In this document: in pieces, positions 36,939 to 57,850 of the stretch | Layout of the letters: the number at the start of each line of letters is the position of its first letter | Position numbering within the stretch: the first letter of the stretch is position 1 | NCBI RefSeq assembly: GCF_000613845.1 | Contig: NZ_BAJT01000008.1 | Span: 1-64,000, forward strand | Length of the DNA stretch: 64,000 nucleotides | Direction: 5' to 3' | Source: Asaia astilbis JCM 15831 | GTDB taxonomy: Bacteria > Pseudomonadota > Alphaproteobacteria > Acetobacterales > Acetobacteraceae | Program-made: the position numbers and the translations under genes | The notes under the pieces: model-generated | Databases searched by the model: none | Seen by the model: the letters and a program-made list of their open reading frames with translations, nothing else | What the model was told of the DNA's origin: nothing

Positions 36939-37223
36939 TCAGTTGACCGAAGCTTCCTTGCGTTCGCCCATGGCGAAGGCTTTCAGGATCGATTCAGCCA
37001 AAAGCTTGGCCGCCTTAGGTGTCAGTCTGAGATGGGCTGTCGGCGCGATAACGATTTCGTTGCCGTGAGGTCGTTCTGCAGCGAGGGTGACTGTGATGAT
37101 GCCGCCAACATGCCCGTAGACCGGGACATTATCTGCGAAAATAATTGGAGCAGATTCGGCGTTAAGTGAAGCGATACCTTGCGCGATCTGGTGCAGGATC
37201 TTGTCTGAATTGTTGTCTGCCAT
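36939..37223 (-). CDS. Conserved-looking hypothetical protein (94 aa)
   Basis: 94 aa, convergent with the Sel1 gene. It reads MADNNSDKILHQIAQGI, then PIIFADNVPVYGHVGGIITVTLAAERP, then NEIVIAPTAHLRLTPKAAKLLAESILKAF. A beta-rich core followed by a helix (MSP-like AHLRLTPKAAKLLAESI) loosely resembles DUF3467-type proteins, which I cannot confirm. No signal or TM segments. Function unknown. Confidence 0.55.
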   Translation of the reverse strand: MADNNSDKILHQIAQGIASLNAESAPIIFADNVPVYGHVGGIITVTLAAERPHGNEIVIAPTAHLRLTPKAAKLLAESILKAFAMGERKEASVN

Positions 37224-37500: not shown

Positions 37501-39249
37501 CTAGATCATCTGATCAAGTCCGGTCGCGACCGGAGAGCGCGTGTCGCCCGTCTTCAGAATGGAAGATTTCTCTGCAAGAATGTTCTCCAGAGTGAGATCT
37601 GCCCGGATTTTTCCGCTCGGTGTGCGAATCACATAGCCCCGCCGGATGACATAATAAGTAAATTCTGTGATCCCGTAACGTTTCATTGTTTCGAACAGAA
37701 TGGGCCTGATCGCAGTTGCATCGTTCGCGGAGTCGTGTTCGACAATCAGGCAGGGTGCATTTCGTTCGGGAAGGAGAGGCGGCACGACCACACATAATGC
37801 GCCGTTGCAAGCCTGACCAAGTGAAAGGCTGATGTCGTTCGTATAATATGTGCTTCCATTGAAAGAGAATTTCTCACTCATCCGGCCCACATGAAAGAGA
37901 TCTCCTTCGTACTCGAAACCGAAATCCTGCGTGCGGAGATAACGTATCCCGTTGCGTTCGATGAAGGACTGTGCGGTACGATTTTCATCGTTCAAGTAGC
38001 CCACGCCCACGCTAGGGCTGGAAATCCAGATCTCACCGATCAGGCCTTGTGACAGGAAGCGCTGTGTTTCAGGATCCACGATATGGATTTTCTGATCTTC
38101 GTGGGGTGCGCCGCAGCTGGCGAGAAAAATGGCCGCGTCGTTTTCGGGCTGCCGGGCGCATTCTGCGCGACCGCGACTCAGGGCGGTGCGATCGAAGGCA
38201 ACCAGCCGGACACCCTCTCCTTTGAGCCCTGACGTCACGAGCAGGGCATTCTCTGCTAGACCATAACAAGGAAAGAACGCGGTTTTGCAAAAGCCTTGCG
38301 CCTCAAACTTGCTGTGGAAGTGTTCCAGCGTGTTGGGGCTGATGCTCTCGGACCCATTGAACGCGATGGTCCAACGCGAGAAATCCCAGTGCGGAGAGAT
38401 TTCATGCGGGGGGAGGCGCGCGCAATAGCGGTAAGCAAAATCGGGGCCGCCGGAAATGGTCGCGCCGTAACGACTGATGGCTTCAAGCCAGCGTGATGGC
38501 TTTTCGATAAATTTGTCAGGGGCCATAAAATAGAACGGATTTCCTGCTGCGAGCGCGGGAAGAACGGCACCGACAAGACCCATGTCGTGCGTAAAGGGAA
38601 GCCAACTCAATCCAGTGTCATCATCCTGATATTGGAAGGAAATCAGCTGCGCATGGATATTGTGGCAGATATTGCGATGAGTGAGACAGACGCCTTTGGG
38701 ATTTTCCGTCGAGCCCGATGTGTACTGGATCAATGCCAGATGCTCTGAACCTGTTTCCACTGGGTCTATCGAGCGCGCTGATTTCAGGGCGCTTTCGAGG
38801 GGGATCCATTTCAATGCCGAGGGGCTTTCCGCCTCCTGGTGGAACAGGTGAAGCGTCGCCTTGAGCCCGAGAACGGCGTCTGCGTTGCTGTCACGCAGAA
38901 TGAAGGCAAAGCGCTCTGCCGCGCCGATGGCGCTGGGGTAAAGTCCCGAAATCGGCGTGAGACCTGCATATAGGCAGGAAAAAAAACCAACAATGTAGTC
39001 AATCCCGTTCTCGAAGAGCAGGAGAACCCTCGATTGGGGTGAGAGAGTGCGCGCGAGATGTGCTGATGCTCTTGAAGCCTGACGATGGAGCTCCGCAGCA
39101 CTCAAGGTCTGAGTGACGGTTTCGCCATCTCCGAGAAAGAGGAAGATGGGGCTCTCACCTTTGGTCAGGTGCCGAAACCGAACCAGATCGACAAGGGTGC
39201 GCTCTTTCCACGCGTGAGGACCGACAAGTGCCTGCTCGTCATCGTACAT
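37501..39249 (-). CDS. Fatty acyl-AMP ligase (FAAL-like ANL enzyme)
   Basis: 582 aa. Adenylation motifs are present: P-loop QYTSGSTENPKGVCLTHRNI, SWLPFTHDMGLVGAVLPALAAGNPFYFM (the WLPxxHDMGL box characteristic of FAALs), FFPCYGLAENALLVTSG, LRTQDFGFEYEGDLFHVGRMSEKFSFNGSTYY (hinge Asp and Arg), and the C-terminal lysine in RTPSGKIRADL. FAALs activate fatty acids as acyl-AMP and load them on acyl carrier proteins of PKSs. Here it is the last gene of a minus-strand operon with a GT and two heptosyltransferases; the PKS lies 12 kb away on the other strand. The combination suggests lipid tailoring of a surface product. Confidence 0.9.
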   Translation of the reverse strand: MYDDEQALVGPHAWKERTLVDLVRFRHLTKGESPIFLFLGDGETVTQTLSAAELHRQASRASAHLARTLSPQSRVLLLFENGIDYIVGFFSCLYAGLTPISGLYPSAIGAAERFAFILRDSNADAVLGLKATLHLFHQEAESPSALKWIPLESALKSARSIDPVETGSEHLALIQYTSGSTENPKGVCLTHRNICHNIHAQLISFQYQDDDTGLSWLPFTHDMGLVGAVLPALAAGNPFYFMAPDKFIEKPSRWLEAISRYGATISGGPDFAYRYCARLPPHEISPHWDFSRWTIAFNGSESISPNTLEHFHSKFEAQGFCKTAFFPCYGLAENALLVTSGLKGEGVRLVAFDRTALSRGRAECARQPENDAAIFLASCGAPHEDQKIHIVDPETQRFLSQGLIGEIWISSPSVGVGYLNDENRTAQSFIERNGIRYLRTQDFGFEYEGDLFHVGRMSEKFSFNGSTYYTNDISLSLGQACNGALCVVVPPLLPERNAPCLIVEHDSANDATAIRPILFETMKRYGITEFTYYVIRRGYVIRTPSGKIRADLTLENILAEKSSILKTGDTRSPVATGLDQMI

Positions 39250-39268
39250 TCTGAAGGACCTGCAAAAG

Positions 39269-40660
39269 TTAGTCGAGCGACAAGGGAGCCGCCGCCCCGC
39301 TCTCGCTTGTGCGCTTAGAGCTCAGCTGGTGATGGAGATCATCGCAATAGGCAATAACATGCTCGGCCATGATGAGGCGTGTGCATTCGAAGTGTCTCGG
39401 CGTGTTCTCGTGACGGGGACAGAAGAGCAGGTTGCCGTGCTCGAAAGGGGTGCGCACGTCATGCCAGCAACTATTGCAGACATGGGGATTGAACACGCGA
39501 TAAGGCGTGTTGAACTCGTTGATGGGGTGCGTGAAGCCGCTGATCATCACAACGGGCGTTCCTGCGGCCCAGGCCAGCCAAGAGAGACCGCTCGATAATC
39601 CCACGAAAAAAGCCGCGTGCCGTAGCCAGTATGCACGCTCTGCGAGCGGACGATCTCCTGTCTCGTCTCGCGTCCCGTGCGGAATATGGTTCCAGTGATT
39701 GCGGTGCCCGCTCACAGAGGCTTTGTCGATGCAAACGACCTCGTAGCCCAGTGATTTCAGGTGGCTGATGACACGAGACCAGCCATGGGGATTATTCCAT
39801 ATCTTGCATTGGCTCGAAGCTTGGGTCGCAATCACCACGTAAGGGTTTTCGATCGGTCGACGCGGCTCTGGCCAGGAGGCAATGCGAGGGGGTTTTTCCT
39901 CCGGATCTACCCCCAAAATGTGTGCGGCAGTTCGATGGAGGCCGACCAGGCGGAAATCGGAGGGCTGCCAGTCGTGATTCTCATCATGAAAATAAAGACC
40001 GATATGATACGTCGCATAGGTCCGGTGCTTGATTTCCTCGTATTCCGCAAAGCTGCAGCATTTAATGCCGGGGTATTGTCCGACGAAGAGCTTGCAGGCC
40101 TCCGGATTCATAGCAACTGTCAGCCGACAACGGTGTTTCTTCTGGAATTGCACAGCGTACGAAAACCAGCCGATCGCGTCTCCCAGGGTCTCACCCGGGA
40201 GTAGAATGGCGACCTCGCGATCTTCGCAATTAAAATCATGGGTGAAGACTGTCTCTCCGGTCTCCAAAGATCGAACTTCAATACGGGTTCGAATGAAATA
40301 CTTCTTCGAGCCGATCACCATGCAATTTCCAGCATCCGAACTGTAAAGGCAGACAGTGCGGTCGAGATCAGTGAAGGTAACATGCCATCTACCTTCAGGC
40401 AGGCTTACTCGCGCCCCATGATTGAAGTCGAAAGCGATGCCATCGACTGTAGTTCTTTGGGTTGCAACGCCACAAGGCTCGGGAAATGCGCTGGTATCTG
40501 ATGGTGGCTTGGTATTTTTAGGTCGAGGACTTGCCTTGGACGCGGTGGCTTCTCTCTTTTCCTCCATGCTTTTGGGCGAAGCGATGTCGCTTTCGGAGCC
40601 AGTCTTCGTTGTTCCCGAATAGTTCAATATCGAGTCGATGATCGCATTTACATCGCTCAT
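39269..40660 (-). CDS. TibC/AAH-like protein O-heptosyltransferase (BAHT family), paralogue 2
   Basis: 463 aa. A low-complexity N-terminal region (1-65) precedes a small beta domain (GIAFDFNHGARVSLPEGRWHVTFTDLDRTVCLYSSDAG) and a GT-B heptosyltransferase core: LPGETLGDAIGWFSYAVQFQKKHRC, VVIATQASSQCKIWNNPHGWSRVI, GLSSGLSWLAWAAGTPVVMISGFTHPINEFNTPYRV. A four-Cys cluster CNSC-x15-CPRH-x11-C follows, as in the iron-binding finger of TibC. The family transfers ADP-heptose to serines of strand-loop-strand repeats in AIDA/TibA autotransporters. Its start is 1 bp from the stop of paralogue 1. The Hint proteins at 43449 and 46143 carry such repeats and are likely substrates. Confidence 0.9.
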   Translation of the reverse strand: MSDVNAIIDSILNYSGTTKTGSESDIASPKSMEEKREATASKASPRPKNTKPPSDTSAFPEPCGVATQRTTVDGIAFDFNHGARVSLPEGRWHVTFTDLDRTVCLYSSDAGNCMVIGSKKYFIRTRIEVRSLETGETVFTHDFNCEDREVAILLPGETLGDAIGWFSYAVQFQKKHRCRLTVAMNPEACKLFVGQYPGIKCCSFAEYEEIKHRTYATYHIGLYFHDENHDWQPSDFRLVGLHRTAAHILGVDPEEKPPRIASWPEPRRPIENPYVVIATQASSQCKIWNNPHGWSRVISHLKSLGYEVVCIDKASVSGHRNHWNHIPHGTRDETGDRPLAERAYWLRHAAFFVGLSSGLSWLAWAAGTPVVMISGFTHPINEFNTPYRVFNPHVCNSCWHDVRTPFEHGNLLFCPRHENTPRHFECTRLIMAEHVIAYCDDLHHQLSSKRTSESGAAAPLSLD

Positions 40661-40661
40661 A

Positions 40662-41813
40662 CTATGCTTGCCTCTGAAGATCGTCGATTAGCTGATCGAT
40701 TACCTGCTCTACATGAGAGGACGTAATCATCTTGGTGCACTCGAAGTCACGTTCGGTATTTGCATGTCGAGGGCACCACATATAATTGGTGCGTTCGAAT
40801 TCAATTGTCACGTCGTTAGAACAGCTATTGCAGACATTGCGGTTGATCACACGGTACGGCGTGGCAAACTCATTATAGGGCTCGGTAAAGCCGCTAATCA
40901 TGACGACAGGACAATTTGCAGCCCAAGCTAACCAGGATAGGCCACTTGAGAGGCCAATGAAAAACGAGGCATGTTTCAGCCACCGAGCTCGCTCACTTAG
41001 CGGGATCGTGCCGGTCAGATCTTCTACACCGTGCGGGATGTGATGCCAGATCGTCCCGCTTCCACCGACACGGTCACGATCAATGCAAATGACCCGGTAG
41101 CCTTTCTTTTTAAGAAAAGGAATGATGCTGGCCCAACCCGTGGGGTTGTTCCAGTATTTGTTGTGACCTGTCGCCTGAGTGGCAAGGCATACATAGTCTT
41201 CAGATATCGGCCGACCGCCTTCGGCAATTCTAATTTCTGGTTGGCGATTGACGGCGCTCAGCCCTAAAATATAAGCCCCGGAGACGCCCAATCCTACCTG
41301 TCTGTAATCAGTCGGTTGATAATCGCGGGCAAAATCGTTGAAAAATATGAGAACCTTGTAGCGTGCGTAGAACGACTTCTCCAGAAGGCCTGTATCGTCA
41401 CTGACGGTCAGGTTCGGAACGTTCGTGTCGAAGAGTTCAGCGAGGCCCTGACGAACAACGCAGGTGAGTCTGCAGCCATGCTGTGTGGCAAATCTCTCCA
41501 CGTGCCCCATCCAGGCAATATGGTCACCGATGCCGCCCAGATGCATGTCGATCAAAACGTCTCGATCCTGTAAATTCAGATCGTGCTCAAATACAATCCG
41601 ATCAGAATGCCGGACCGTGATCGAAAAAGGGACGAAGTACTTTTTCGTGCTGGCGACTGTACCGCCCTTGCTCTCGCCTGCGTAAAGGAGGGTCTGGGTT
41701 AGACGGTCCCGAATCTCCAGATGCCAGTCTCCTTGAGGCAGGCTGACGCGGCAACCATCCTGAAAATCATATCTGATCCCATCGGGTCCGGTCTGGCTCG
41801 GCGTGCTATCCAT
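40662..41813 (-). CDS. TibC/AAH-like protein O-heptosyltransferase (BAHT family), paralogue 1
   Basis: 383 aa, the usual family length. The beta domain (GIRYDFQDGCRVSLPQGDWHLEIRDRLTQTLLYAGESKGG; STKKYFVPFSITVRHSD) is followed by the heptosyltransferase core: MHLGGIGDHIAWMGHVERFATQHGCRLT, CLATQATGHNKYWNNPTGWASII, GLSSGLSWLAWAANCPVVMISGFTEPYNEFATPYRVI. The four-Cys cluster has the same spacing as paralogue 2 (CNSC-x15-C-x11-C). It lacks the N-terminal low-complexity arm of paralogue 2. Two adjacent copies may form hetero-oligomers or act on different repeats. It follows the GT gene with a 36-bp gap. Confidence 0.9.
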   Translation of the reverse strand: MDSTPSQTGPDGIRYDFQDGCRVSLPQGDWHLEIRDRLTQTLLYAGESKGGTVASTKKYFVPFSITVRHSDRIVFEHDLNLQDRDVLIDMHLGGIGDHIAWMGHVERFATQHGCRLTCVVRQGLAELFDTNVPNLTVSDDTGLLEKSFYARYKVLIFFNDFARDYQPTDYRQVGLGVSGAYILGLSAVNRQPEIRIAEGGRPISEDYVCLATQATGHNKYWNNPTGWASIIPFLKKKGYRVICIDRDRVGGSGTIWHHIPHGVEDLTGTIPLSERARWLKHASFFIGLSSGLSWLAWAANCPVVMISGFTEPYNEFATPYRVINRNVCNSCSNDVTIEFERTNYMWCPRHANTERDFECTKMITSSHVEQVIDQLIDDLQRQA

Positions 41814-41849
41814 GGGCTCCTGCTCTGCAAATGTCCTGAGGGCAGGCCA

Positions 41850-42812
41850 TCAGCCTGACTGCGCGAGAATATCGCCATAGACCCGAACTACGGCTTGATA
41901 GGTCGCGTTGATTGAATATTGCTTGGCTGTCTTCTCTGCTTCGTCCAGCATTCTGTCAATCCTAGGCTCTCCACGGCTCAAGCCATCAATCAGATACGCA
42001 ATAGAATCGACGATTTCTTCGCATTGTTCGGGGGAAAACCAGTGTCCGTTAAGGTCAGTTGCGTAATCCTTTCCTCCGGTTCCTCTGAGTCCGACGAGGG
42101 CGCAGCGCGAAGCCATGGCCTCCAGAGGCGTCAAAGGAAAAGCCTCCTGTCGTGACAGAGCCACAAAAATGGGTGCCATCCCCATGACGTCAGCAACATC
42201 ACGTTGGGACATATTTGTCAGCGCTATCCAGGGGACTTCAGCGGTGTGAGGGTATTTGAGATGCAGCATCGTTTTAAGTAGTTGCGCCATGGCAGAATTC
42301 GTTCCTTCTGCTGGCCACTTTGCCGGGTTGGTAGCGATGCAAAGCCGTTTTTGTCTTGGGTAGAAGAGACCTGAATCGACGGAGTTGGGAATGATATGCA
42401 CGTTACCTACCCCGAGCATCGACGTGAGCGATCGCGCCGTTTCCCGACCCGGCACGATGAAATGACTGAATCCGAGCTCAGCCAGGGTCTGTCCGCTCAA
42501 TCCATAACTGTAGAGATAGAACTGATTCTGACAGAAGATGATTTTGGTGGCCGGAGTGGGGATTCGGACATAGTCCAGCATCCCTTCACTCAAGGTTTCC
42601 GGGAATACGACGAGCGCAGCATCCTCTGGCGAAAACCGATCACTCACAGTGATGCGGCTTGAAACATCCAGCCACGTCGGCCGACCGGCCGGTTGATATA
42701 CCAAAACCTCGTAGCCTTGCTTTGCGAGGATGCCAGCATGTTGATATGTCACTTTGATGCCGCCAGAGACGACATCTGGGCCGAAGGGATTGAAAAATAT
42801 GATTTTTTTCAA
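41850..42812 (-). CDS. Family 4-like glycosyltransferase
   Basis: About 320 aa from a TTG start at 42812 (LKKIIFFNPFGPDVVSGGIKVTYQHAG) with AAAGGTGA upstream; the longer frame to 42968 adds an unlikely Cys-rich leader. GT-B features: NPFGPDVVSGGIKVTYQHAGILAKQGYEVLVYQP, FSHFIVPGRETARSLTS, VHIIPNSVDSGLFYPR, and the C-terminal donor site MAPIFVALSRQEAFPLTPLEAMASRCALVGLRGTGGKDYA. It is the first gene of the operon GT, heptosyltransferase 1, heptosyltransferase 2, FAAL. It may extend the heptose glycan on the Hint proteins or build a related sugar. Donor and acceptor unknown. Confidence 0.85.
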   Translation of the reverse strand: MKKIIFFNPFGPDVVSGGIKVTYQHAGILAKQGYEVLVYQPAGRPTWLDVSSRITVSDRFSPEDAALVVFPETLSEGMLDYVRIPTPATKIIFCQNQFYLYSYGLSGQTLAELGFSHFIVPGRETARSLTSMLGVGNVHIIPNSVDSGLFYPRQKRLCIATNPAKWPAEGTNSAMAQLLKTMLHLKYPHTAEVPWIALTNMSQRDVADVMGMAPIFVALSRQEAFPLTPLEAMASRCALVGLRGTGGKDYATDLNGHWFSPEQCEEIVDSIAYLIDGLSRGEPRIDRMLDEAEKTAKQYSINATYQAVVRVYGDILAQSG

Positions 42813-43448
42813 CGCATCATCACCTTTTAAAGCGCAGGTTTCATCTTTGCAGCCCTCATCTGAAACAGCAATGAGTGCGCAAGAACATGAGGGTGTGTGC
42901 CAAGCGAGCTTTTTTCTCGTCTCTCTTTGCGAATAAATAGAACTTGACCAAATAGGGTGTGCACACAAGGTGATGTGGTGCGGAAATTTTCACTATGATA
43001 TAAAGAATAAATATTTACTCGTTAATATTTTTTTCTGAAAGTAATTTATTCGATTTTCATCATTGGATCAGGTGAGTCCAATTGGCTGTGTATTCGTGCA
43101 TGGACTTTTATCTTTGTAAAAAGGACAGCGTAGACACGGAAAAGACAATCGTTTCTGAAGTGCTTATTTAAGATAGGTTGATAAAATATCGTCAAAATTA
43201 ATGATATTGTAGTTAATGTGCTTTATGCCAAAGATTTGATGGGTTTTTACAAACAATTTAACATTGTCTTGAGTAGGTGGTTGTGTCTAAAATGTTAGCA
43301 TAAAGACAACATGGACCCGAGTGGCCCGGTAGGGTGCTGAGAAAGTTCGTCTCAGTAGTTCGCGCGGAGCCAGAGTCGTCTTCACTTAATGCTCTAAGGC
43401 CGATGAGATCAGCATCGTATCGCGCCGAACTTTCTTGGGAATTCACGC
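42813..43448. other. Long AT-rich divergent promoter region between the GT operon and the first Hint gene
   Basis: About 636 bp with no supported gene; the short frames here are random. The stretch 42975-43280 is clearly more AT-rich than the surrounding coding DNA, with runs such as AATAAATATTTACTC and TTAATATTTTTTTCTG. It must hold divergent promoters for the glycosylation operon and the Hint gene, and possibly a long 5' leader of the latter. The composition suggests silencing by an H-NS/MvaT- or Ros-like protein, or acquisition; no motif decides this. Confidence 0.45.
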
Positions 43449-45697
43449 ATGGGTATTACATCCAACACCGGGACCGCAGGCGCTAAGATCACCAAAAACG
43501 GCTCGAAATATAGCGTTCTGAGTGGGGCGACTCTCACAGTCGAAGGCGCCGGAACCACTGTAACCGGGGCTCTTGTCTCTGGTTTCGGGAGGGGAAGCGA
43601 AAACCAGCCTGGGGCTGTTCCTGGCGTATCCGGCGGTACGGATCACCCGGCCCTCGTGTTGCTATCGGCTGGTGGCGTCGCGTCGGGAGCGACGGTTGGC
43701 TTCGGTGGCGTCGTGATGGCCGTCAACAAGGGATCGGCTGTTGGTGGATCGGCGTTTAATAGTGGCTCGTTCGCTGCTGCAAACGGCGGCATTGTGGACG
43801 GCGCGACGATTGGCTCTGGTGGTGGCGTGTTGGCTCCATGGTCTCCGGTTATGACGGCGGAGCTGGCGTCGTTACGAATACCCATGTTCAAACTGGTGGT
43901 TACGGTTTGGCCGGAGGTGGTTTCACCATCAAAGGGCAGAAATTCGAGGGATCGGGCGTTATCTCCAACGGTCGGTTCGACGTGGGTTCCACGGAAATCC
44001 TCGATTCTGCAGGAACTGACATAGGAAGTACCATAGGTGGAACACAGCTCGTTTCATCCGGGGGTGTATCCCAGAGATCGATTTTCAGTGCTGGGACGCA
44101 GATCGTATTGGGTGATGGCGTGTCAATCGGAGCGACAGCCAGTGCGGGAGGGCGGATCGAAGTTCGCAATGGCGGAGTAGGCTCGTCCATCGTACTCGGT
44201 TCTGGAGGAAGTTTGCAGGTCGGCGCTGGTGGGCGTGTCAATGGACTTCAGGTTCAGGCTGCTGCAGCGGCGACCGCAAATCAGGCGGCTGTCGTGTCGG
44301 GGGTCGTTGTGTCGGGAGGGGGGACGTTTACTCTTAATTCCGGTGCGACACTCATCAACGCAGTGATCTCGGGCACTTCGACGGATGGTGGTCCCGGTGG
44401 GTTGCTGGTCCTTCAATCCGGGGCCGTACTCAGCGGTGTGACCTCGATGGGTTGGAAAAGCCGCCTCGATATCGACAGTGTGCAATACTCGTCGGGATCC
44501 AAGGTCACCTATAGCGGTAATACGCTTACGGTACGAGACGCCAACGGCAATGTTGTCTGGTCGGGGCCGGTAGCTGGCTTGCCGAGCGGTGCAGCGAAGG
44601 ATTTCCATCTGGAGCGTGATGCTGCTGATGGAAGCATGGTTGTCGTCTTCGACAAGTGCTTCCTCAAAGGGACAATGATCCGCACCGATCAAGGTGAGCG
44701 TGCCGTAGAAGAGCTTGCTGTTGGAGATCGGGTTGCAGCATTTGTCGATGGCAAGGAGGTTTTCCGAGAGATCATCTGGATCGGTCGCCGGACCGCTTCG
44801 GTACGTTCAGGGCAGTATGATGATGAGGTCGGTTACCCCGTGCGTATTCTGCGTGGGGCACTGGGGGATAACGTGCCTCATAAGGATCTTCTGGTAACGC
44901 CCGAACATGCGCTTTTCATGAATGGCGCCTTCGTGCCTGCGCGCATGCTTACTAACGGCCGTAGCATCTTCTATGATCGGACGATTGCAAATTTTGATTA
45001 CTACCATGTCGAAACCGACGAGCACTCGATCCTTTGGTCGGATGGAGCGCTGAGTGAGAGTTACCTCGACACAGGTGATCGTGATACTTTCTCTCGGGGT
45101 GGTCCTGTTGTTCGCCTGCTTAATGCGCCAGTCAAAGAATGGGCGAAGGATGCTGCGGTTCCGTTGCGTACCGACCGAGACTTTGTAGAGCCTTTACATG
45201 CAGGTCTGAATGCAAGGGCAGATGGACTCGAACTTGGTCTGGAACGTGCCGGGTTGGTGCAAACGGAAGATGCAGATCTGCATCTCGTTGATGATCAGGG
45301 CAGGGAAATCCGCTCGCTCCGTACAGTCAACAAGGCTCACATCTTTACGATCCCGGCCGATGTGCGGAGCTTGAAGCTTGTCTCGCGTGTTGCTCGCCCC
45401 GTCGACACGGAAGGGCCGTTTGTTGACGATCGACGTCGTCTCGGAGTGCTGGTGGGAGACATTCAGGTGTGGGAGGCCGGTCAGACCCGTCAGATCAGTG
45501 CGCATCTGACAACGCCAGCCTTAGCAGGGTGGTCGAGTGTCGAAGACGAGGGTCATCGGTGGACGACCGGTAATGCTGAACTGCCTTTGGATGATCTGGT
45601 GCAAAACAGTATTTCGATGCTTTCGATCGAAATTCTTGCAGGCGGCCCCTACACGAGTGAATCAAGCGAGCCAGCGGTTCTGCCGGTGGCGATATAA
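43449..45697 (+). CDS. Strand-loop-strand (AIDA-like) repeat protein with C-terminal Hint domain, copy 1, frameshifted
   Basis: About 749 aa after repair. It starts MGITSNTGTAGAKITKNGS with no classical signal peptide. Residues about 20-370 are Gly/Ser/Val-rich strand-loop-strand repeats (LVSSGGVSQRSIFSAG, SAGGRIEVRNGG, VLGSGGSLQVGAGG, TLNSGATLINAVISG). A Hint_2-type domain begins at Cys 44657-44659 (KCFLKGTMIRTDQGERAVEELAVGD) with the TPEH motif at 44897-44908 and NFDYYHVETDEHSILWSDGALSESYLDTGD. A C-terminal 200-residue domain follows and ends PVAI; no beta-barrel is visible. One base is missing near 43834-43837. The Hint fold catalyses N-S shift and backbone cleavage or transfer. The repeats are probable heptosylation sites for the neighbouring BAHT enzymes. 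Confidence 0.82.
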
Positions 45698-46142
45698 GGG
45701 CACTGGGGTTGTTGAACTGGTCGACCTCCTAAGGGATGTCGACCAGTTTACTCTTGATTTGTTATATCAGCGAACCTTTCAAAATCAGGTCGAATAAGGT
45801 TGATGTACGAAAACATACTTCCGTGGAACCTTATTTAAGAAGCGCTCGTACGAGATTAAAATCAGGAATGATTTTTACAGCATCAGTAATATGCTTCATG
45901 ATTTCTGGAGGTTGGTAATTTAGAAACCAATGCCAGGTGATCTATATAGTTATATTCTATATATCAGAACGTTGCTTGAGTCATTCTTATGTGTCAGGTG
46001 CAGGATAGTTAACTAAATATGAACGACTATAGTGTGTTCGCGATAATAAGATTCTCAATGATGGGGTAATGGATCTCATATTCTCATTATAGACAGTCTT
46101 TTTTGTGGGCACTCACTCGTTTATCCTTGCGAGGGCTGGCAT
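45698..46142. other. AT-rich spacer between the two Hint genes
   Basis: About 445 bp, AT-rich from 45760 on, without a gene. It carries the strong hairpin at 45715-45748 and then likely an independent promoter for the second Hint gene. Composition resembles the 42.8-43.4 kb region. Confidence 0.4.
45715..45748 (+). terminator. Strong hairpin after the first Hint gene
   Basis: AACTGGTCGAC (45715-45725) and GTCGACCAGTT (45738-45748) are exact complements around a 12-nt loop, 18 bp after the stop codon. The T-tract behind it is poor (TACTCTTGATTT), so it may stop transcription weakly or protect the 3' end. Confidence 0.6.
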
Positions 46143-48355
46143 ATGGGTATCACTTCCACTGGAATAAGCGGCGGCGCATCGGTCACGAAGCGGGGTATTA
46201 TGGATATCGGGTCATAAGTGGCGCGACCTTGATCACGACGGGCAAGGATGGCGCAACGGTTAACGCTTATGTTGAAGGATTGGGCGGAGGTGGCACAGAT
46301 AATCCGGCCATGCTGATTGCTTCGGCAGCAGCAGTCGCGTCCGGTGCTACCGCCGTCTCAGGGGGCGTGGTGTTGGCTGGCGGTGATGGGAGAGCGATCG
46401 GCGGCACCGCTTATGCAAGCGGTGGGTTTGCCGCCATCAATGATGGTATTGTCAGCGGTGTCACAGTTGGATCGATGGGGGGAGTTCTCGCCAGCAAGAT
46501 GCCCGATTATGGAGGTGGGGCGGGTCTTGTTATCGATGCCCATGTGCAGGCAGGGGGTGGTAGGCCTGGCGGGGGGGGGATTTACGCTTAAGGGCCAACA
46601 TTTCAACGGACCAGGGGTCATTTCGGCGAGTAAGTTCGATGTCGGATCGACGGAGATGCTGGCCAGCGGCGGAACGGATTTGGGGAGCACGATTGGGGGA
46701 ACTCAGGTGGTTTCCTCTGGAGGCACGGCGTTGAGAAGCATCTTCAGTGCAGGCACGCAGTTGCTGAGCGCTGGAGCTGTAGCGGACCAGAATATTGTCT
46801 CTGCCGGCGGTCGGATAGCGGTTGGTCGCGGTGCAGTCACGAAAAACGTGACTGTTGGCGCTGGTGGCAGTCTCCATGCAGAGAGGGGGGGCAAATTAAC
46901 GTAGCGAGTATCGCAGCCCATGGCGCTGCGACGATCGAGGCAGAGGCTGTTGCCAGCGCTGTCAAGATCGAGCGTGGTGGGACCATGACGGTCAATTCGG
47001 GGGCAACACTGACCAATGTCACGATCTCGGGTATCGCTTCTGAGGGCGAAGGCGCCGGCGGTCTGCTCATTGTTCAATCCGGAGCCGTTTTGAGCGGCGT
47101 CACCATCGGTTGGAAAGGGCGGATCGATGTCGATACGCTTGGCTGGGATGAGGGACAACGCATCGTTTATAGCAATTCGCAGATCAGTGTTGTCGACCGA
47201 TCGGGAAGGGTGCTCTGGTCTGCTCCGGTGAGAGGTGCGCGATCCGTCTCGACAGCTGATTACCATCTCGAGCGCGATCCCGCCGATGGCAGCACGGTTA
47301 TTGTCTACGATAAGTGTTTTCTAAGGGGCACCTTGATCCGCACCGAACGAGGTGAGGTAGCGGTGGAAGATCTTGCCGTTGGAGATCAGATTGCTGCCTT
47401 AGTCGATGGAAACGAAGTTTTCCGTGATGTCGTCTGGATCGGCCAGCGTTCGACCATTGTACGCACCTGGCTCGATGACGACGAGGCTGGCTATCCTGTT
47501 CGTATCCTGCGGAACGCGCTGGGCGATAACATGCCGCATAAAGACCTTCTTGTGACACCAGAGCATGCGATGTTCCTTAATGGAGCGTTCGTGCCAGCGC
47601 GCATGCTCGTCAACGGACGAAGCATTTTCTATGATCGCTCGATCACGCATTTCGATTATTATCATATCGAGACGGATACTCATTCGATCATCTGGTCTGA
47701 CGGCGCGCTGAGTGAGAGCTATCTCGACACGGGTGATCGCAAGCGCTTTGCTCAGGCTAACTCGGTCGTTCATCTCTTAAATTCGCCGGATCGGGACTGG
47801 GAAAACGACGGTGCAGCACCGTTGCGTATCGATCGAAGCTTCGTTGAACCGCTTCATGCGTCCCTGTCCTATCGTGCCAGCGCCCTGGGATTGGGCCGTG
47901 TCGTACGCGAGCCAGAGGTCACAGAAGATCCCGACCTGCATCTTATCGATGAGAAAGGGCGTATTCTGCGCAAGATGCGTGTGGTGAACAAATCGAGCGT
48001 GTTCATGTTGCCGCCGGATGCACAGATGGTGCGTATTGTTTCGCGTGTTTCGCGTCCGGCAGATGCAATCGGGCCGTTCCACGATGATCGTCGCCATCTC
48101 GGTGTGCTCGTCGGCGATATCCAGCTCTGGGAGTCTGATCAGACGCGCTATCTCGGCAAGCACCTGACGGATGAAGCACTGGACGGATGGGCCAATATCG
48201 AAGACGGACGACAGCGCTGGACGACGGGGTCCGCCGTTCTCGATCTCAGCGACCGCCAGTCGGACGCAGTCTGCATCCTGGCAATCGAAGTTCTGGCTGG
48301 TGGTCCCTATCTGGCCAAATCCTCGGAATTATTTCGAGGTGCTCAGGCTGGCTAG
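46143..48355 (+). CDS. Strand-loop-strand repeat protein with C-terminal Hint domain, copy 2, three frame breaks
   Basis: Paralogue of copy 1 with the same plan. It starts MGITSTGISGGASVTKRG at 46143, has repeats (VVSSGGTALRSIFSAG, SAGGRIAVGRGAVTKNV, TVGAGGSLHAERGG), a Hint domain from Cys 47315-47317 (KCFLRGTLIRTERGEVAVEDLAVGD; TPEH at 47555-47566; HFDYYHIETDTHSIIWSDGALSESYLDTGD) and the same C-terminal domain (RHLGVLVGDIQLWESDQTR). Breaks: GGGG at 46192-46195 (add one), GGGGG at 46553-46557 (remove one), and G7 at 46885-46891 (add one). Each fix restores repeat continuity, e.g. RGYYGYRVISGATL. All three are homopolymers, so sequence error is likely. If real, the gene is dead while copy 1 carries one break. 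Confidence 0.8.
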
Positions 48356-48396
48356 CTCCAATAAATTTTTTACTTCCCGCTTTCTTGGGGTAAACA

Positions 48397-48425
48397 GGGT
48401 GGCTGTCATGGCCACCCCATTTTTG
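48397..48425 (+). terminator. Rho-independent terminator after the second Hint gene
   Basis: GGGTGGC (48397-48403) pairs with GCCACCC (48411-48417) over a 7-nt loop, followed by a T-rich run ATTTTT. It separates the Hint genes from the ANL/PKS genes, whose ATG is 18 bp downstream. Confidence 0.8.
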
Positions 48426-48442
48426 TTTTGGGATTGAACTCG

Positions 48443-49906
48443 ATGTTTCATGTTATCGCCTTGCGACACGCCAGGCAGAATCCTCAATCCCTGGCGTTCG
48501 ATAGCCTGTCACAGGATTGGACATTTGCGCAGCTGGACCGGGATGTGAAGGCAGTTGCATCCGCCCTTGGTAAGCTCCGCGAGGCAGATCCACGCCTGAT
48601 CGGTATCCACTGTGGCAACCTCTACTGGCATTGGGTTTTCATTTTCGCGCTCGCATCTCTTGGCTTGGCAAGTGCGTCGCTACCAGAAAGTTCAAGCCCG
48701 TCCTTCTTGCGCGATGTTCAGCTTCTTGAGCCCGACATTGTGTTGTCACTAGGTGGATTGTCTCTACTGGATACGCAGGTGCTCGAGGTGAGTGAAGGCT
48801 GGCTCACCCGTGTCCGCGAGGCCGAACCGCAAGAGCTTGATGTGGTGATCGATTGCGACAAGATCTGTCGCTATGCGATTGCGGCAGGCACGGATGCTGA
48901 GCGTCGCGCTCTGTCCATGACGTTTCGTCAGGCTGAAACAGCAATCATGCATATGATTTTCCAGGATCAGATTTTGGGAAAATCGAGTGCTGAGCGTCCC
49001 CATGTCTTGTCGACTATCGGTGTCATCTCCCTGACCGGGTTTATTGTTGGGTGCGCCAGTTTGTGCGGCGGCTCACCACTGAATTTTGTCAGCCATACTG
49101 ATATCGGCATTCTGATTGCACGTAGAATCCCAACCGTGGCGGTTGTGACGCCAAGTCATCTTGCTCACATTATCGAGGTTCTTCCTCCCGGCATGAGCCC
49201 GCTTGAGACGCTGAAACTGATCGTGACTGGAGGCAGGTTGAGCCGCCTCTTGCGGGACCAGACGCTCTCAAAACTGACGCCAACGTTGATTACGGCTTAT
49301 GGCACCGATGAGGTCGGCGCGGTCGCACTCGGTGACGCCTCTGGTTTCGAAGCGGACGAGATGGTTGGCACGCCTTTGCCTTGGGTAACTCTTCAGATCG
49401 TGAGTCAAGAGGGAGAAATTCTTCCGATGGGGCAGGAAGGGATCGTCCGCGTCAAAAGCTCGGGCCTGCTCGATGGGTATGTCGATGTGCAAGAGGACCA
49501 ATCACGACATTTCGCAGACGGCTGGTTCTACCCCGGGGACCGAGGCAAACTTGCTGCTGATGGAAGTCTTCGTCTCCTGGGACGCGTAGATGATCTGGTC
49601 TCTATTGGCGGTGAAAAGTTCGACCTCGGCGTGATCGACGATATCGCCCGCGATATTCTTGGGCAGCGCGATCTGGGAAGTTTCCTCTCACTCGATGAGA
49701 CGGGTCGCGACCGGATCAATATCGCACTGGCCTCAGATAAAGGATTTGATGCGGATAGATTGGCGCAGGCGCTGCGCGCCTTCTATCCATCTCTGCCTCC
49801 AGTCCGAGTGATGTCGGTCGATCACATCCCGTGTTCTTTGGACGGTCAGGTGGATCGCGAGCGGCTTGGGCATGCCTTTAAGCGCTCAGACGCGGCAAAT
49901 GCCTGA
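48443..49906 (+). CDS. Degenerate ANL-superfamily (AMP-binding) protein lacking the P-loop
   Basis: 487 aa from ATG 48443. The overall ANL fold is recognisable: DWTFAQLDRDVKAVASALGKL, LIGIHCGNLYWHWVFIFALASLGLASASLPESSSPSF, ITAYGTDEVGAVALGD, ADGWFYPGDRGKLAADGSLRLLGRVDDLVSIGGEKFDLGVID (hinge and A8 loop). However, the ATP-grasping TSGTTGxPK motif is absent; the region reads IIAAGTDAERRALSMTF-like sequence instead (about residues 155-185). The C-terminal lysine expected in PxxxxGKxxR is LDGQVDRERL. It may be a non-adenylating thioester-handling or regulatory relative. It precedes the PKS by about 95 bp on the same strand. Confidence 0.75.
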   Translation: MFHVIALRHARQNPQSLAFDSLSQDWTFAQLDRDVKAVASALGKLREADPRLIGIHCGNLYWHWVFIFALASLGLASASLPESSSPSFLRDVQLLEPDIVLSLGGLSLLDTQVLEVSEGWLTRVREAEPQELDVVIDCDKICRYAIAAGTDAERRALSMTFRQAETAIMHMIFQDQILGKSSAERPHVLSTIGVISLTGFIVGCASLCGGSPLNFVSHTDIGILIARRIPTVAVVTPSHLAHIIEVLPPGMSPLETLKLIVTGGRLSRLLRDQTLSKLTPTLITAYGTDEVGAVALGDASGFEADEMVGTPLPWVTLQIVSQEGEILPMGQEGIVRVKSSGLLDGYVDVQEDQSRHFADGWFYPGDRGKLAADGSLRLLGRVDDLVSIGGEKFDLGVIDDIARDILGQRDLGSFLSLDETGRDRINIALASDKGFDADRLAQALRAFYPSLPPVRVMSVDHIPCSLDGQVDRERLGHAFKRSDAANA

Positions 49907-50002
49907 TCATGACGGCACTCTCTTAACATCGGTCAAGTGAAACACACCGGGACTGGCCAATTTGGGCCGTCTCGATACGGAAAACAGGGTTCGGTTCTCG
50001 TT

Positions 50003-53000
50003 ATGTCGCGCAAGAAAAATGCTGATATTGCCATCGTTGGAATAGGGTGCCGCCTTGCACCCAACATAACGAATGTCGATGAACTCTGGTCCTTCCTCTG
50101 TAATGAGGGCGAAGCGGTCACGGATGTGCCGCAAGAGCGATGGAGCGTAAAACGTTTCTACGCTGAGGAAATCGAGTCGCCGTCGAAAACCTATATGCGA
50201 CGAGGCAGTTTTTTAAAAAGGAACATCCACGAATTCGAGCCGCTCTTCTTCGGAATCTCTCCAAGAGAGGCACAGATCCTCGATCCTCAACAAAAGCTGT
50301 TGCTCGAAGTGACGTGGGAAGCGATGGAGATGGCGCGCATCGTGCCGTCGCGATTGTCGGGTCATCGGACCGGTGTGTTCATCGGTATTTTTGCCGTCGA
50401 TGCCCACGCTCATACATCCAGTCCGTATAACCTGCCGACGGTGCGCGACCATTTTGCGGCGACTGCCACTCCTTCGACCATGCTCTCGGCACGCCTTGCT
50501 CATGTCTACGATCTGCAGGGGCCTTGCATGTCGATCGACACGGCTTGCTCGTCATCGCTCGTTGCCTTGCATCAGGCCTGTCGGAGCCTGAATGAAGGTG
50601 AGACTGACGTCGCCATAACAGGCGGTGTCAGTCTCATGATTGCGCCGCAAACGTCGATTTTCATGTCTAAAGGGCACTTCATTGCGCGTGACGGGCGCTC
50701 GAAAAGCTTCGACGCTGCTGCAGACGGTTATGGTCGTGGCGAAGGGAGTGTCGTCTTCGTCCTCAAGCGGCTGGAGGATGCCGAGCGCGACGGAGACACG
50801 GTTCATGCGATTGTAAGCGCTACGGGCGTCAATTCCGACGGTCGTACGCAGTTCCTGACCTCGCCTGATGCTGGAGCGCAGTCGCGCCTCATGACCGAGG
50901 TTCTCAATGTTGCTCAGGTTGAGCCGGGCGATGTCGCTTACGTGGAAACGCACGGCACGGGCACCCCGGCGGGCGATCCAATCGAGACTTATGCTCTCTC
51001 GCAATCCATCGCGCGCTTCAAGGAAGAGAAGCTCGTGATCGGCGCGATCAAGGCCAATCTGGGCCATACGGAAGCCTCAGCGGGAGTTCTGGGAACACTC
51101 AAGGCCGCTCTCTGTTTGCGTCATCAGGAGGTGCCGCCCCAGCCAGGACTGCAAAAGATCAATCCGTCCATCCATCTGGATGACTGGAATCTCGATATCG
51201 CGCGGGGAGAAAAGCGTTCTTTTACGCCGGAAAAACCGGCTCGTTATGCCGGGGTGAATTCCTTCGGCTACGGGGGGACAAACGCGATCGCGCTGCTGCG
51301 TCGTCCTGAACCGGCAAAGAAAAAGGCTGAGCACAAACAGCCAGCACGTCGGATCAATGGGAAAATTCCCTTCCTTTTGACGGCGTTTTCTAAAACCTCG
51401 CTGCCGCTTATGGCATCGGCGTATTGCGAAAAGCTCGGTGCCGAACCTGACCTGATACTCGGCGATCTCTCTTTCAGCCTTGCCACGTCCCGCACCCTGT
51501 TTCGCCATCGTCTTCTGGTGTTGGCGCAGGACGAGACAGAGCTCAGGTCGAGACTGGAGGCCTATCTTCAGAACAAGCCCGAAGAGGGTCTCTTCCAGAC
51601 AGTGGTGGAGGCACAATCCGGCCGGGGGATCGTCTTCGTCTATTCCGGTGTCGGGCCGCAATGGTGGGGCATGGGGCGCTATCTTCTGCACCATGCGCCT
51701 GAGCCCGTTCTGGCCAAGGCGCGCCGCTGCGATACGCTTTTCAAGGCGCTTGCAGGGTTCTCGATCTGCGATGAAATCCTCAAAGAAGAAGAGGTCTCGC
51801 GGATCCATAATACGGCGATCCTGCAGCCTGCGATTTTTGTCATCCAGATCCTCGTCACAGAATATCTGGCTCATCAGGGCATTCTGCCCGATGCTGTTCT
51901 CGGTCACAGCATGGGTGAGGTCGCGGCTGCCCATATCTCGGGAGCTCTGACGCTGGACGACGCCGTGGCGGTCATTTTCCATCGGAGCACCCTGCAAGCG
52001 TCTGGATGGAACCGGTCGCATGCTTGCCGTCGGGCTCTCAGCTGAGGCCGCACAGGAACTTCTGGACAAGGAAGCGCCAGAGCTCTGTGTTGCCGCTATC
52101 AACGCGCCCAGCACCTGCACGCTTGCCGGGCCTGAAACAGCGATCAAGGCGCTTGCGGCCCATCTGACGCAAAAGGGTCTTTTCAACCGCATTCTGAGCG
52201 TGGACGTTCCCTTCCACAGCCCCGTGATGGATCGCATTGAGACCGATCTGACATCGGCATTGTCGGCTCTTTCTCCCCACGCGGCGACCATACCTTTCTA
52301 TTCGACTGTTCATGGTGCCGTGACGGATGAAGATCATCGCGTCGATGCCGCGTACTGGTTCAAAAACGCCCGACAGCCTGTTCTCTTCTCAGCTGCTGTC
52401 GAAGCCTGTCTGAGCGACGGATTTACCCAGTTTGTTGAAATTGGGCCGCATCCGGTTATCGGCAGATCCCTGAAATCGGTTGCGGACAAGCAGCAGGCCA
52501 AGCTGAGTGTCATCAGTACGCTCAATCGTCAGGAAGACGAGGCGAAATGTCTCGAAAACGCGGTCGCCAATATAATTCTGCAAACCGCGCGTCTCGACTG
52601 GCAGGGGATTACGGGCGGATCGCTGATCGACCTTCCGACCTATCGCTGGTCCAGAGAGGAATGCTGGATCGAGAACGAGCGCGAGCGCCGTTTCCGCCAG
52701 GGGGGAGAGGCTCATCCGCTCATCGGCTTCGGCGCGATGACACCGGGAAAATCCTGGGTGGTCGACCTTACCGAGCTTGGCGTGCCCTGGCTGAAAGATC
52801 ATTGCATCGACACTGTGATCCTCCTGCCGGCTGCCGGGTTTGTCGAGGCGGCTCTGGCCGTCGGGCACGAGGTTGAGGGTCAGACGGGTGTTGTGCTCGA
52901 AAACTTCGAGATTATCGCACCGCTCGTCGTACAGACCGGCGATAACCCTGTGATGCACCTCGTTTACGACGAGGTTAAAAAGACGCTGCGGTTCTTTAGT

Positions 53001-56000
53001 GCCAAGGAAGAATTCAGCGAGATGTGGCTCGACCACGGCAAGGTCGATGTCCTCTCTTCGGCGCCTTGGCCGATGGCGGTGATCGATCAGAATGAGGCGC
53101 GCGACTGGCTTGCACAGGGGCCAGAAGGGGCACTGCTCTATGACAGGATACGCGATCACGGTTTTCATTACGGTCCAAGCTTCCGGACCCTTCAGCGTCT
53201 GGCTGTGCAAGGGCGTGTCGCCTATGCGCAAATCGCCTTGAATGAAGCAGAGAGAGAGGCAGGGGATCAGTATTTCCTGCATCCAGCGCTTCTTGACGGT
53301 GCAATGCATGCGCTGATCGGTCTCGTGCCGGAGAGCTTCTCCGACCATATGTATGTGCCTGTCGGTTTCGAGCGCCTGAGCTGTTTCGGCAAGGGCTACA
53401 CTGAGATCCTTGCGCGCGCCGAAATCACGTCGATCTCGCAGAGAGAAATTGACGCGATTTTGCGTCTCTACACTCCCGAAGGCGTGCCGGTCGCCGAAAT
53501 CAAGGGATTGCGCTTCGCCGAAGTGCCTCGCTCCCGCAAGGAAGCAGCGAAAGCTGTTGCGGCAGAACAATATTTCACCAAATGGACCGAAACCGAGGCG
53601 TCCATTCTCTTCGCCGAACCCAAGACGATCCTCGTTGCTGGGCATAAGAGCGCGGCTCAGAAGAAGCTTTGCGCTTTGCTGGAAGAGAATGGCGTCACGC
53701 TTCTTACGGTGCCCCGTCAAGGCGCGATCACAGCCGAGACGATCGGCCTGGAGGCCGGTCTCGCTCTGGACGCCGTTCTCTATCTTGCAGGTGGGTCAGG
53801 TGAGGGTGCTTTCGAGGCACTTGTCGAGCAGGTGAGTGCTCTGGTCAAATTCGACAAGCGCCTGTCGCTGGAAGCGTCCAACCAGCAGCCAAAATTCATT
53901 TTGGTGTCGGAGAATGCAGCATTTTTCGACCCCGAAGACCTGCTGGCGTCACCGTCGACTGTGACCCCCGATGGGGCTGCTCTGGTCGGCTTCTTCAAAG
54001 GCCTCGTCGATGAGCGACCCGAGTTCCGAGGGAAGGTCATCGACGTCGCCACGTTCTCGACGGAAGAAACCCGGATCGCGCTTGCTGCTGAAATCCTGCA
54101 TGACGATCAGGAAGCCGAGGTGGCGTTGCGTGAGGGACGGCGTTTCGTGCCTCGTTTCATGCCGGTCGAGGGGCAGCCAGACAGGCCACTCGCTCAGCTG
54201 CCTGGGAACCCGGCCATCAAGCTGCAAAAGAGCCGCACGGGAACGCTCGATGGCCTGAGCTATCAGGCTTTCGATGTCCGGCCGCCGGGGCGTGGCGAAA
54301 TCACGATCCGCATCCTGGCCACGTCACTCAACTTCAAAGACATGCTCAAGGGTATCTCTGTCCTGCCCGAAAAATTCCTGCTCGACACCTATCATACGGT
54401 GGAGATGGGCATGGAATGCTGTTTTGAGGTCGTGGCAGTCGGCAAAGGCGTGAAGCGATTCAAGGTCGGCGAGCGCTATCTTACCTGCCATCCGGGTTGT
54501 TTTGCTTCGCATATGACGCTCCCCATCAAGGGATTCCGTGTCATGCCGCTCAACCTTTTCGAGACCGGGGGGCGCCCCCTGACAGTCGCCGAGGCAACGG
54601 GGCTCCCGATCGCGATTGCGACGGCACTTTATTGCCTGCACGATCTGGCTCATCTGAAGAAGGGCGAAATCCTGCTCGTTCACTCTGCGGCAGGCGGTGT
54701 TGGACTTGCTGCCATCGAAATTGCCAAGATCATCGGCGCACGTATTTTCGCGACGGCGAGTAATGACGAAAAGCGTCAGATCCTGCTCGATCGTGGCTGT
54801 GAGGCGGTCTGGGATTCACGCAGCCTTGCGTTCTACGATGGTATCCTTGAGGTCACTGGTGGCAAGGGCGTCGATGTGGTGCTCAACAGCCTTCCCGGTG
54901 AGATGCAGGCTCATAGCCTTGCGCTTTTATGCAATACGGGTCGCTTCGTAGAGATCGGGAAGAAGGATATCTGGGAGAAGCGCGATCTCTCGCAGTTCAG
55001 CTTTAACGGAAACGTATCGTTCCATAGCTTCGATCTCGACCTGATGATGGCAAATGACCATCGCAAGGCCGTCTCGATCTTCGATCGTATCCCTTACCTG
55101 TCGCGTAAATTCGATACGGTCATCCTGCCGCACAAGGTCTACCCGGCCTCCGAGGTGCGCGATGCGTTCAAGTTTATGTCGTCGGCAAAACATATCGGCA
55201 AAATTCTCGTCTCCTACGAGGATCTCTCGAATGTTCGAGCCCAGAGACAGCCCGTTCGCCCGATCGATCCTCAGGCAGCCTATCTCATTACTGGCGGTCA
55301 GGGTGGTCTTGGCCTGGCAACGGCCAAATGGCTTGTCGAGCAGGGCGCGCGTCATCTGCATCTCATGGGGCGCAGCAAGCGTGACGACGTGGAGACGCTG
55401 GCCAAAATCAAGGCGTTGAAAAAGACGGGTGCGCGGGTGACGTTGCATTACGGCGATGTCAGCGTCCATGACGATGTCGCGCGGATCAAGACGGAAATTC
55501 ACGGTAAGGGAAAGCCGTTAAAGGGAGTTTTCCACGCAGCAGGTGTGCTGGATGATCGGTTGGTCTCCAATTATGCCGAAGACAGCTTGCGCCGGGTGCT
55601 GGCTCCCAAGGTCTTGGGGGCACATCATCTCGACCAGCTGACGCGAGACTGTCCGCTCGATTATTTCGTCCTCTACTCCTCGATCGTGACGGTCACGGGC
55701 AATGTCGGTCAGAGCAGCTATCTTGCTGCCAATTCCTGGCTCGATGCACTGGCGAGCGCGCGCCGCAAGGCAGGCTACCCAGCCGTTGCGGTTCAGTGGG
55801 GGCCGATTGCGAGGTGGGGATGCTTTCGCAAGAGGGCAGCGTCGTGCAGTTTTTCGAGAATGCGGGCTTCCGTCTCTTGCAGGCTGAAGAGGCGCTGTCG
55901 CATCTCCCCGATCTGATCGACCGGGATCGGGATACAGTTGCGGCGTTGGCGATCGACTGGGAGACGTGCTTCGCCAATCATGGAGCCTTGGAGCGAAATC

Positions 56001-56347
56001 CGAAATTCGCTCTTATCCGTCGTGAGAAGAACGTCCGAAACTCTTCGGCACAGAAACTGGCGCATCTTCAGGCCCTGACGCCGGAGGCGCGGTACGAGTT
56101 CGTGCTTGAGAATGTGAAAACCATCCTGGGAAGTGTTCTCAAGATGGAGCCTGACAGCATCGATCCCGGCGCACGTCCCAACGAGCTCGGGGTGGACTCC
56201 CTCGCTGGTGTAGAGATTCAGACGGCAATTAAGACAGAGTTCAATGTCGAGATTTCGCTTCTCGTTCTGTCACGTAACGAGCCCATTCGTGAGATCGCTA
56301 AGAACGTCTTGCGTCAGATCAGTCTGAATGCGATGGCGTCTGCCTGA
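50003..56347 (+). CDS. Single-module highly reducing type I polyketide synthase (KS-AT-DH-ER-KR-ACP), two frame breaks
   Basis: About 2,114 aa after repair; GTG 49937 is an alternative start. Domains: KS (C182 in DTACSSSLV; VETHGTGTPAGDP; KANLGHTEASAG); AT (S636 in GHSMGEV); DH (52713-53570: HPLIGFGAM, WLKDHCIDTVILLP, HPALLDGAMHAL); a structural pseudo-KR/linker without methyltransferase; ER (54230-55215: HSAAGGVGLAAIEIAKIIGA); KR (55260-55800: LITGGQGGLGLATAKWLV, YSSIVTVTGNVGQSSYLAANSW); ACP (ELGVDSLAGVEIQ, Ser at 56198-56200). There is no thioesterase. Breaks: AA at 51996-51997 (one extra; repaired LQRLDGTGRMLAVG) and G5 at 55798-55802 (one missing; repaired QWGADCEVGML). The layout matches mycocerosic-acid-synthase-like iterative enzymes making saturated chains. 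The FAAL at 37501 could supply the starter acyl chain. Confidence 0.85.
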
Positions 56348-57693: not shown

Positions 57694-57850
57694 GGTCTCG
57701 TCCTTGAACAAGAAGGAAAAACTGAGCGAAAGGGTATAGCGCGCCAGATAAGGGACCGTTTCACTCCTTGTTTGCCCTGTCGGCGAACGGAAATCGAGTC
57801 CTGTCTCACATTCTTGTCAGAAGCCCCGTTAAGCGCGTGTTAGATTTCGG

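Follow-up and report, generated by a model that had tools for sequence, protein, structure and literature searches.

The closest described counterpart of the locus analyzed here is the beta-group type-1 polyketide synthase (PKS) cluster of the Acetobacteraceae, in which a PKS of domain order KS-AT-DH-ER-KR-PP is accompanied by flanking acyl ligases and an O-heptosyltransferase (PMC8776678, 2021). For Asaia, the account of this cluster in that report also lists hint-domain proteins, and the product is given as unknown. Further marks of the beta group are its place in the PKS tree of that report and the absence of an aminotransferase gene. In Bombella apis, a type I PKS (T1PKS) cluster with two adenylation domains was proposed as an antifungal candidate (PMC8262860), and a T1PKS cluster was reported in all Bombella genomes of a further study, as well as in Saccharibacter floricola, Gluconacetobacter diazotrophicus and Asaia bogorensis (PMC9147383). 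We analyzed a stretch of 64,000 nucleotides from Asaia astilbis JCM 15831 (contig NZ_BAJT01000008.1; hereafter the window), which comes from a draft genome of 3.14 Mb that is 88.8% complete. In the window, genes for a fatty acyl-AMP ligase (FAAL), two TibC-type O-heptosyltransferases (BAHT2 and BAHT1) and a group 1 glycosyltransferase (GT) lie on the minus strand, facing genes for two Hint-domain proteins (HintA and HintB), an ANL relative and a PKS on the plus strand. This gene content fits the beta-group cluster as described in PMC8776678, and a comparison of gene content indicates that the two are very probably the same. We favor, with moderate confidence, the view, well supported by genomic comparison, that these genes act as a unit whose product is a surface protein that is heptosylated and processes itself. 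The gene set is conserved in acetic acid bacteria, bee symbionts among them, and probably makes this sugar-coated protein along with a fatty chain dedicated to it.

The original prediction placed all of these genes correctly, as judged by Pfam and NCBIfam matches, but its statement that no described system has this combination is contradicted by the acyl ligases, O-heptosyltransferase and Asaia hint-domain proteins listed in PMC8776678. The gene combination is thus already on record, whereas its reading as a glycoprotein system was not found in print in the open-access PMC literature. The same literature yielded no report linking Hint proteins to heptosylation, nor one that connects a FAAL with a heptosyltransferase in a system of this sort. 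In PMC8776678 the cluster is read as a metabolite cluster, and here as a glycoprotein system. The section of that report on the PKS cluster does not mention Hint proteins as heptosylation substrates, upstream Hint genes in other genera, or an adenylation-dead ANL. Moreover, the Asaia PKS is split into two genes there, whereas we found it in one frame in two of the stretches compared (L056 and L058).

The order TonB-Sel1-[FAAL-BAHT2-BAHT1-GT] facing [HintA-HintB-ANL-PKS] was kept in nine Asaia genomes and in Swaminathania (G016), with one genome (G008) split over two contigs and the PKS of G016 read at its start only. In other genera, a single strand mostly carries the genes, in the order ANL-PKS-FAAL-BAHT(-BAHT). 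The frames of PKS and FAAL abut or share a few bases in several of these clusters (L068, L071, L081), and many clusters in these genera carry at least one Hint gene directly upstream of the ANL gene. The Bombella T1PKS cluster is very probably the same as that of the window, because a contig of Bombella apis MRM1 (L167) shows the arrangement ANL-PKS-FAAL-BAHT-BAHT.

We next counted each gene, by best query and at 100 bits or more (45 bits for Hint), across 47 Acetobacteraceae clusters. PKS, ANL and FAAL were present in 47/47, BAHT in 45, Hint in 32 and GT in 22. Of these clusters, 27 are the window itself and loci reached by way of BAHT, in which the presence of BAHT is by selection, and 20 were found with an ANL profile; amongst the latter, PKS and FAAL occurred in 20, BAHT in 18 and Hint in 12. 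Seven of the 20 (L215, L216, L217, L221, L222, L227, L231) are on contigs that BAHT had led to before, and L222 is the same locus as L158, which is one row of the ANL profile itself. The 13 clusters first met through ANL alone contained PKS (13), FAAL (13), BAHT (11) and Hint (11), with Hint directly upstream of ANL in 11/13; this set includes one cluster that starts at a contig end before ANL (L213) and another with PKS, ANL and FAAL only, in a different order (L230). In L226, Hint-ANL-PKS-FAAL stand together without an adjoining BAHT gene, the genome encoding one BAHT elsewhere, and this arrangement connects the Hint gene with the PKS branch. Amongst 249 Acetobacteraceae genomes, the ANL profile scored at least 540 bits in 23, which are the same 23 in which we found a BAHT-PKS cluster; the next-best score was 409 bits (G146). 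BAHT genes occurred in 70 of the 249, and at least one BAHT stretch was read in 62 of these. In a class-wide draw of 385 genomes the profile matched three at E 1e-70, all Acetobacteraceae. It matched 43 in an order-wide draw of 299 genomes, which says little about other families because every genome listed belongs to the Acetobacteraceae. Judged by this conservation of gene content, FAAL, BAHT, Hint, ANL and PKS form one conserved unit. Of the three outcomes named as refuting the original prediction, two were examined, a lack of co-occurrence and a separate PKS unit in relatives, and neither was observed.

HintA (43449..45697, plus strand) and HintB (~46143..48355, plus strand) share one predicted architecture: a strand-loop-strand (SLS) beta-solenoid, a Hint_2 domain (44657-45073 and 47315-47731, respectively) and a C-terminal domain (45080-45697 and 47738-48355). 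Pfam recognized Hint_2 at 130 bits in HintA and 132 bits in HintB. For the SLS repeats of the window proteins, NCBIfam and Pfam gave weak matches only, TIGR04415 being matched in HintB alone (E 1.2e-5; at 25 bits, below the cut-off of 30), whereas the operon Hint protein of L214 scored 95 bits, above the cut-off. A profile built from 16 Asaia and Swaminathania Hint proteins matched TibA in the PDB (E 1.5e-14), together with Ag43-type structures and a bacterial intein-like domain. A structure model of HintA (mean predicted local distance difference test score (pLDDT) 69, predicted template modeling score (pTM) 0.50, residues 61-170 mostly above 90) likewise had TibA as its best structural match (Foldseek E 6.6e-6). 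In a second model (mean pLDDT 70, pTM 0.57; Hint part 68-91 in most blocks), the fold of the Hint part matched intein-like domains, inteins and Hedgehog, and the significant matches in a fold search with this model were all of Hint type. On the evidence of these profiles and models, HintA and HintB each combine a TibA-like SLS solenoid with an intein-like Hint domain, which is followed by a C-terminal domain.

Cys1, His84 (in TxxH), His117, His123 and Glu134 were present in 38/38 aligned Hint domains. The search pattern for the Hint cysteine had missed three of 41 frames (L082, L084, L118), which were dropped from this count; Cys1 is present in all three, and [ST]PxH was not found in L082 and L084. 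Amongst further operon Hint proteins, Cys1 and TPEH occurred in 11/11, leaving out L219, which is cut by a contig end. When the ends of the Hint domains were inspected by eye, no terminal His-Asn was seen; N-terminal cleavage or transfer is therefore to be expected rather than splicing, and a splicing intein was rejected as a candidate. Sixteen Hint_2 matches above the cut-off were counted in the source genome as a whole.

The original prediction had these proteins ending in the Hint domain. The solenoid and the Hint domain stood, whereas the end did not: a C-terminal domain of ~200 residues follows, which has no Pfam or NCBIfam match. No outer-membrane beta-barrel was found in HintA or HintB, where Pfam gives Hint_2 only, and on this ground we do not file them as autotransporters. 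A weak PT-HINT match in one Hint protein (L142, E 0.0085) raises the alternative that these are polymorphic toxins of the pretoxin-Hint kind, in which the Hint domain would release a C-terminal toxin. We disfavor this as highly improbable, since the C-terminal part is uniformly about 190-214 residues long across the 37 operon Hint proteins compared, has conserved positions and shows no variable end. Furthermore, the next gene in the cluster maps is ANL, PKS or another Hint gene, although no search was aimed at immunity genes.

Both heptosyltransferases lie far above the equivalog cut-off of TIGR04414 (200 bits). BAHT2 (39269..40660, minus strand) scored 550 bits against this model and 395 bits against TibC (4rap), and BAHT1 (40662..41813, minus strand) 554 and 375 bits, respectively. 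In TibC, Asp110 is the catalytic base, Lys230 binds the sugar and four cysteines form the iron finger, according to PMC4358343. BAHT1 keeps all nine TibC residues compared; BAHT2 keeps D110, K230, R286, W305 and the four iron-finger cysteines, with Ser in place of T226. Across an alignment of ten BAHTs (both window copies and eight others), Asp110, Lys230, Arg286, Trp305 and the iron-finger residues Cys339/342/358/370 were kept in all, while Thr226 was Ser in eight, BAHT2 included. BAHT2 also carries an N-terminal extension of ~65 residues (40465-40660) with a short helix-like start, which is seen in copies from Bombella too and is perhaps a docking element.

Proteins likely to be heptosylated were then located through TIGR04415, the model for the heptosylation-target repeat. 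All 66 matches lay in frames that also carry Hint_2; the count covers 17 cluster-bearing genomes and G001, four of the 18 having no TIGR04415 match, and leaves out the rows of G000 (14) and G016 (10), in which frames were broken or the Hint list was not complete, as well as two Hint fragments of G040. BAHT and Hint_2 co-occur across the Acetobacteraceae: Hint_2 was found in 69/70 genomes with BAHT and in 117/179 without it (Fisher p 1e-9, at thresholds of E 1e-40 for BAHT and 1e-10 for Hint_2, with related genomes treated as independent). In 20 of 57 BAHT stretches without a PKS, a Hint gene lies within about 1.7 kb. These analyses give good support to the inference that BAHT1 and BAHT2 O-heptosylate the Hint solenoids, as TibC does TibA. 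A third BAHT is encoded elsewhere in the source genome (G000:C49:47614-48762; L009), about 17 kb from a Hint_2 gene, and BAHTs of this type occur in 8/9 genomes of the genus Asaia.

BAHT follows FAAL in one operon with the GT (41850..42968, minus strand; Glycos_transf_1, 40 bits), whose true start is probably near 42812, where homology to a relative begins. Given this arrangement and the presence of GT in 22/47 clusters, the BAHTs and GT might instead act on the polyketide lipid, yielding a heptose glycolipid for which the Hint proteins would be binding partners. This alternative seems very unlikely to us: the BAHTs retain the catalytic and iron-finger residues of TibC, the SLS solenoid matches the very protein that TibC modifies, and Hint genes stand near BAHT even in the 20 stretches mentioned above, where PKS is missing.

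The acyl branch begins with FAAL (37501..39249, minus strand; AMP-binding, 189 bits). Its best NCBIfam matches include fatty acyl-AMP ligase models, although it does not reach their cut-offs (e.g., 275 bits where the cut-off is 600), and its solved relatives include FadD32, FadD23 and FadD28. FAALs are separated from acyl-CoA ligases by a FAAL-specific insertion. The P-loop and the A10 lysine were kept in 18/18 and 20/20 cluster FAALs, and both were absent from 18/18 and 20/20 copies of the second ANL protein (48428..49906, plus strand; AMP-binding, 71 bits), in which the A5 and A8 regions are still recognizable; the two sets share one locus, giving 37 distinct copies. The original prediction of an ANL relative was thus right as to the AMP-binding fold, whereas the adenylation motifs are missing from 37/37 copies. 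By its motifs, 48428-49906 is an adenylation-dead pseudo-ANL that is conserved across clusters. In G146 (L184, 11995-17747), a related ANL gene is flanked by a Hint gene and a BAHT gene, and a Hint gene lies beside an ANL relative in L185 (9510-13850), neither stretch containing a PKS. Since the ANL proteins beside Hint genes in G146 and G072 keep the A10 lysine and have no P-loop, the loss of adenylation seems to have been stepwise.

The PKS (49937..56347, plus strand) is a reducing type I enzyme with a single module, KS-AT-DH-ER-KR-ACP, read in three pieces. Its AT motifs, GHSMGE and VPFHS, look malonyl-type. The best NCBIfam match of the second piece was the Pks2 model, below its cut-off. 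Thioesterases could not be identified for these PKSs, according to the treatment of the cluster in PMC8776678.

Thioester release, or transfer to a nucleophile, is known for Hedgehog and for some bacterial intein-like domains. In the mechanism that we propose, the BAHTs would O-heptosylate the solenoids of HintA and HintB. The Hint cysteine, to judge from the conserved catalytic residues, would then form a thioester at its N-terminal junction, and this would release the solenoid or pass it to a nucleophile. In parallel, FAAL would activate a fatty acid and load it onto the PKS, which would lengthen and reduce the chain. More speculatively, the chain may be handed on to the glycoprotein rather than released, because there is no thioesterase, perhaps with the help of the pseudo-ANL; the acceptor site might be the heptose, or the C-terminus through the Hint thioester, and the acyl chain might anchor the glycoprotein at the cell surface. 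That the PKS chain becomes attached to the Hint glycoprotein at all is a bold possibility, which we think unlikely to hold. Equally tentative is its most specific form, in which Hint would join the C-terminus of the heptosylated solenoid to the FAAL-PKS acyl chain or its carrier, with handover by the dead ANL. This would be a bacterial counterpart of Hedgehog lipidation and, as such, the function of the T1PKS cluster in Bombella and Asaia.

Several observations weigh against a unit devoted to a surface glycoprotein. A secretion route, an acceptor and an acyl transferase are not known, no search having been aimed at them. The Hint paralogs are mostly encoded outside the operon (9-27 matches per Asaia genome), and a single clade of operon Hint proteins was looked for and not found (5 changes). 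Hint_2 occurs in the 117 of 179 genomes without BAHT mentioned above and is therefore independent of heptosylation there, while 37/57 BAHT stretches without PKS show no Hint gene. Within the clusters, 15/47 have no Hint gene beside them: two belong to Saccharibacter and 11 to the Bombella genus group, and the others are G698 and, where the contig ends, G633; Hint_2 was present elsewhere in the genome in 7/7 of those looked at. Finally, an MFS transporter gene (56425-57711, minus strand) converges on the PKS, as that of a metabolite exporter might, and likewise in L058; these are the two stretches reaching far enough past the PKS.

The transporter gene and the Bombella and Saccharibacter clusters without an adjoining Hint gene would also be expected if the PKS branch made a free specialized metabolite, possibly the Bombella antifungal, with the Hint and BAHT genes as co-inherited neighbors that have a separate job. 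Studies based on antiSMASH propose such a metabolite, the cluster being treated as a type-1 PKS biosynthetic gene cluster in PMC8776678 and as a Bombella antifungal candidate in PMC8262860. The latter reports that Bombella spent medium keeps its antifungal activity after protease and heat treatment, in line with a free small molecule, provided that the Bombella cluster makes it. We nevertheless consider this explanation fairly unlikely, since BAHT is present in 45/47 clusters, all SLS targets compared lie in Hint proteins, and Hint stands directly upstream of ANL in 11/13 newly met clusters. In addition, the wide spread of the T1PKS cluster is not tied to bee symbiosis, according to PMC9147383. 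Taken together, the data lead us to retain the heptosylated, self-processing surface protein as the favored product.

Some of the window genes are interrupted. Relative to homologs, the frame of HintA is broken once (43829-43835). HintB has two breaks or more, at about 46545 and 46883, with G runs near them, and likely a third near 46190; the PKS has two (about 52003 and 55778-55853). HintA and HintB are unbroken single frames in 7/8 Asaia relatives, the exception being G005, which has breaks in HintA, HintB and PKS and also in BAHT1 and GT. The PKS is likewise a single frame over the part read in 7/8 Asaia relatives, most running off the stretch; in L056 and L058 the ACP is reached in one frame. 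With intact frames in seven of eight relatives, the breaks are not common to the genus. Further window genes appear, by eye, to be frame-interrupted (12351-13142, 18382-20057, 26936-28578), which suggests sequencing error, decay being the alternative. Adjoining FAAL, a 94-residue open reading frame (36939-37223, minus strand) has no Pfam match and is 98% identical in another Asaia species, against 69-79% identity for Sel1, FAAL, GT and the BAHTs in the same species.

If this reading holds, a PKS cluster so far catalogued for an unknown metabolite and, in a bee symbiont, for a candidate antifungal becomes a testable protein-modification system. Acetic acid bacterial heptosyltransferases would gain a class of substrates, the solenoid-Hint proteins, that takes the place of autotransporters. 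The reading would also put the widespread Hint_2 proteins into a functional context, and it draws attention to a strictly conserved pseudo-adenylase. Asaia lives with mosquitoes and other insects. As Bombella lives with bees (PMC8262860), such a surface system may matter for colonization.

Compared with TibC/TibA and Aah/AIDA-I, the locus has heptosyltransferases of the same equivalog, with the same catalytic and iron-finger residues, and a TibA-like solenoid. The predicted substrate differs in carrying a Hint and a C-terminal domain, with no barrel found, and in having its gene grouped with FAAL, PKS and pseudo-ANL genes. With bacterial intein-like domains and the Hint domain of Hedgehog, HintA and HintB have the fold, Cys1 and TxxH in common; here, however, no terminal His-Asn was seen and an unassigned C-terminal domain follows, the comparison being one of sequence and predicted fold. 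The FAAL motifs and the PKS domain order are like those of lipid systems that pair a FAAL with a single-module reducing PKS, the mycobacterial MAS/Pks2 type, from which the locus would differ in its AT motifs if these are, as we presume, malonyl-type.

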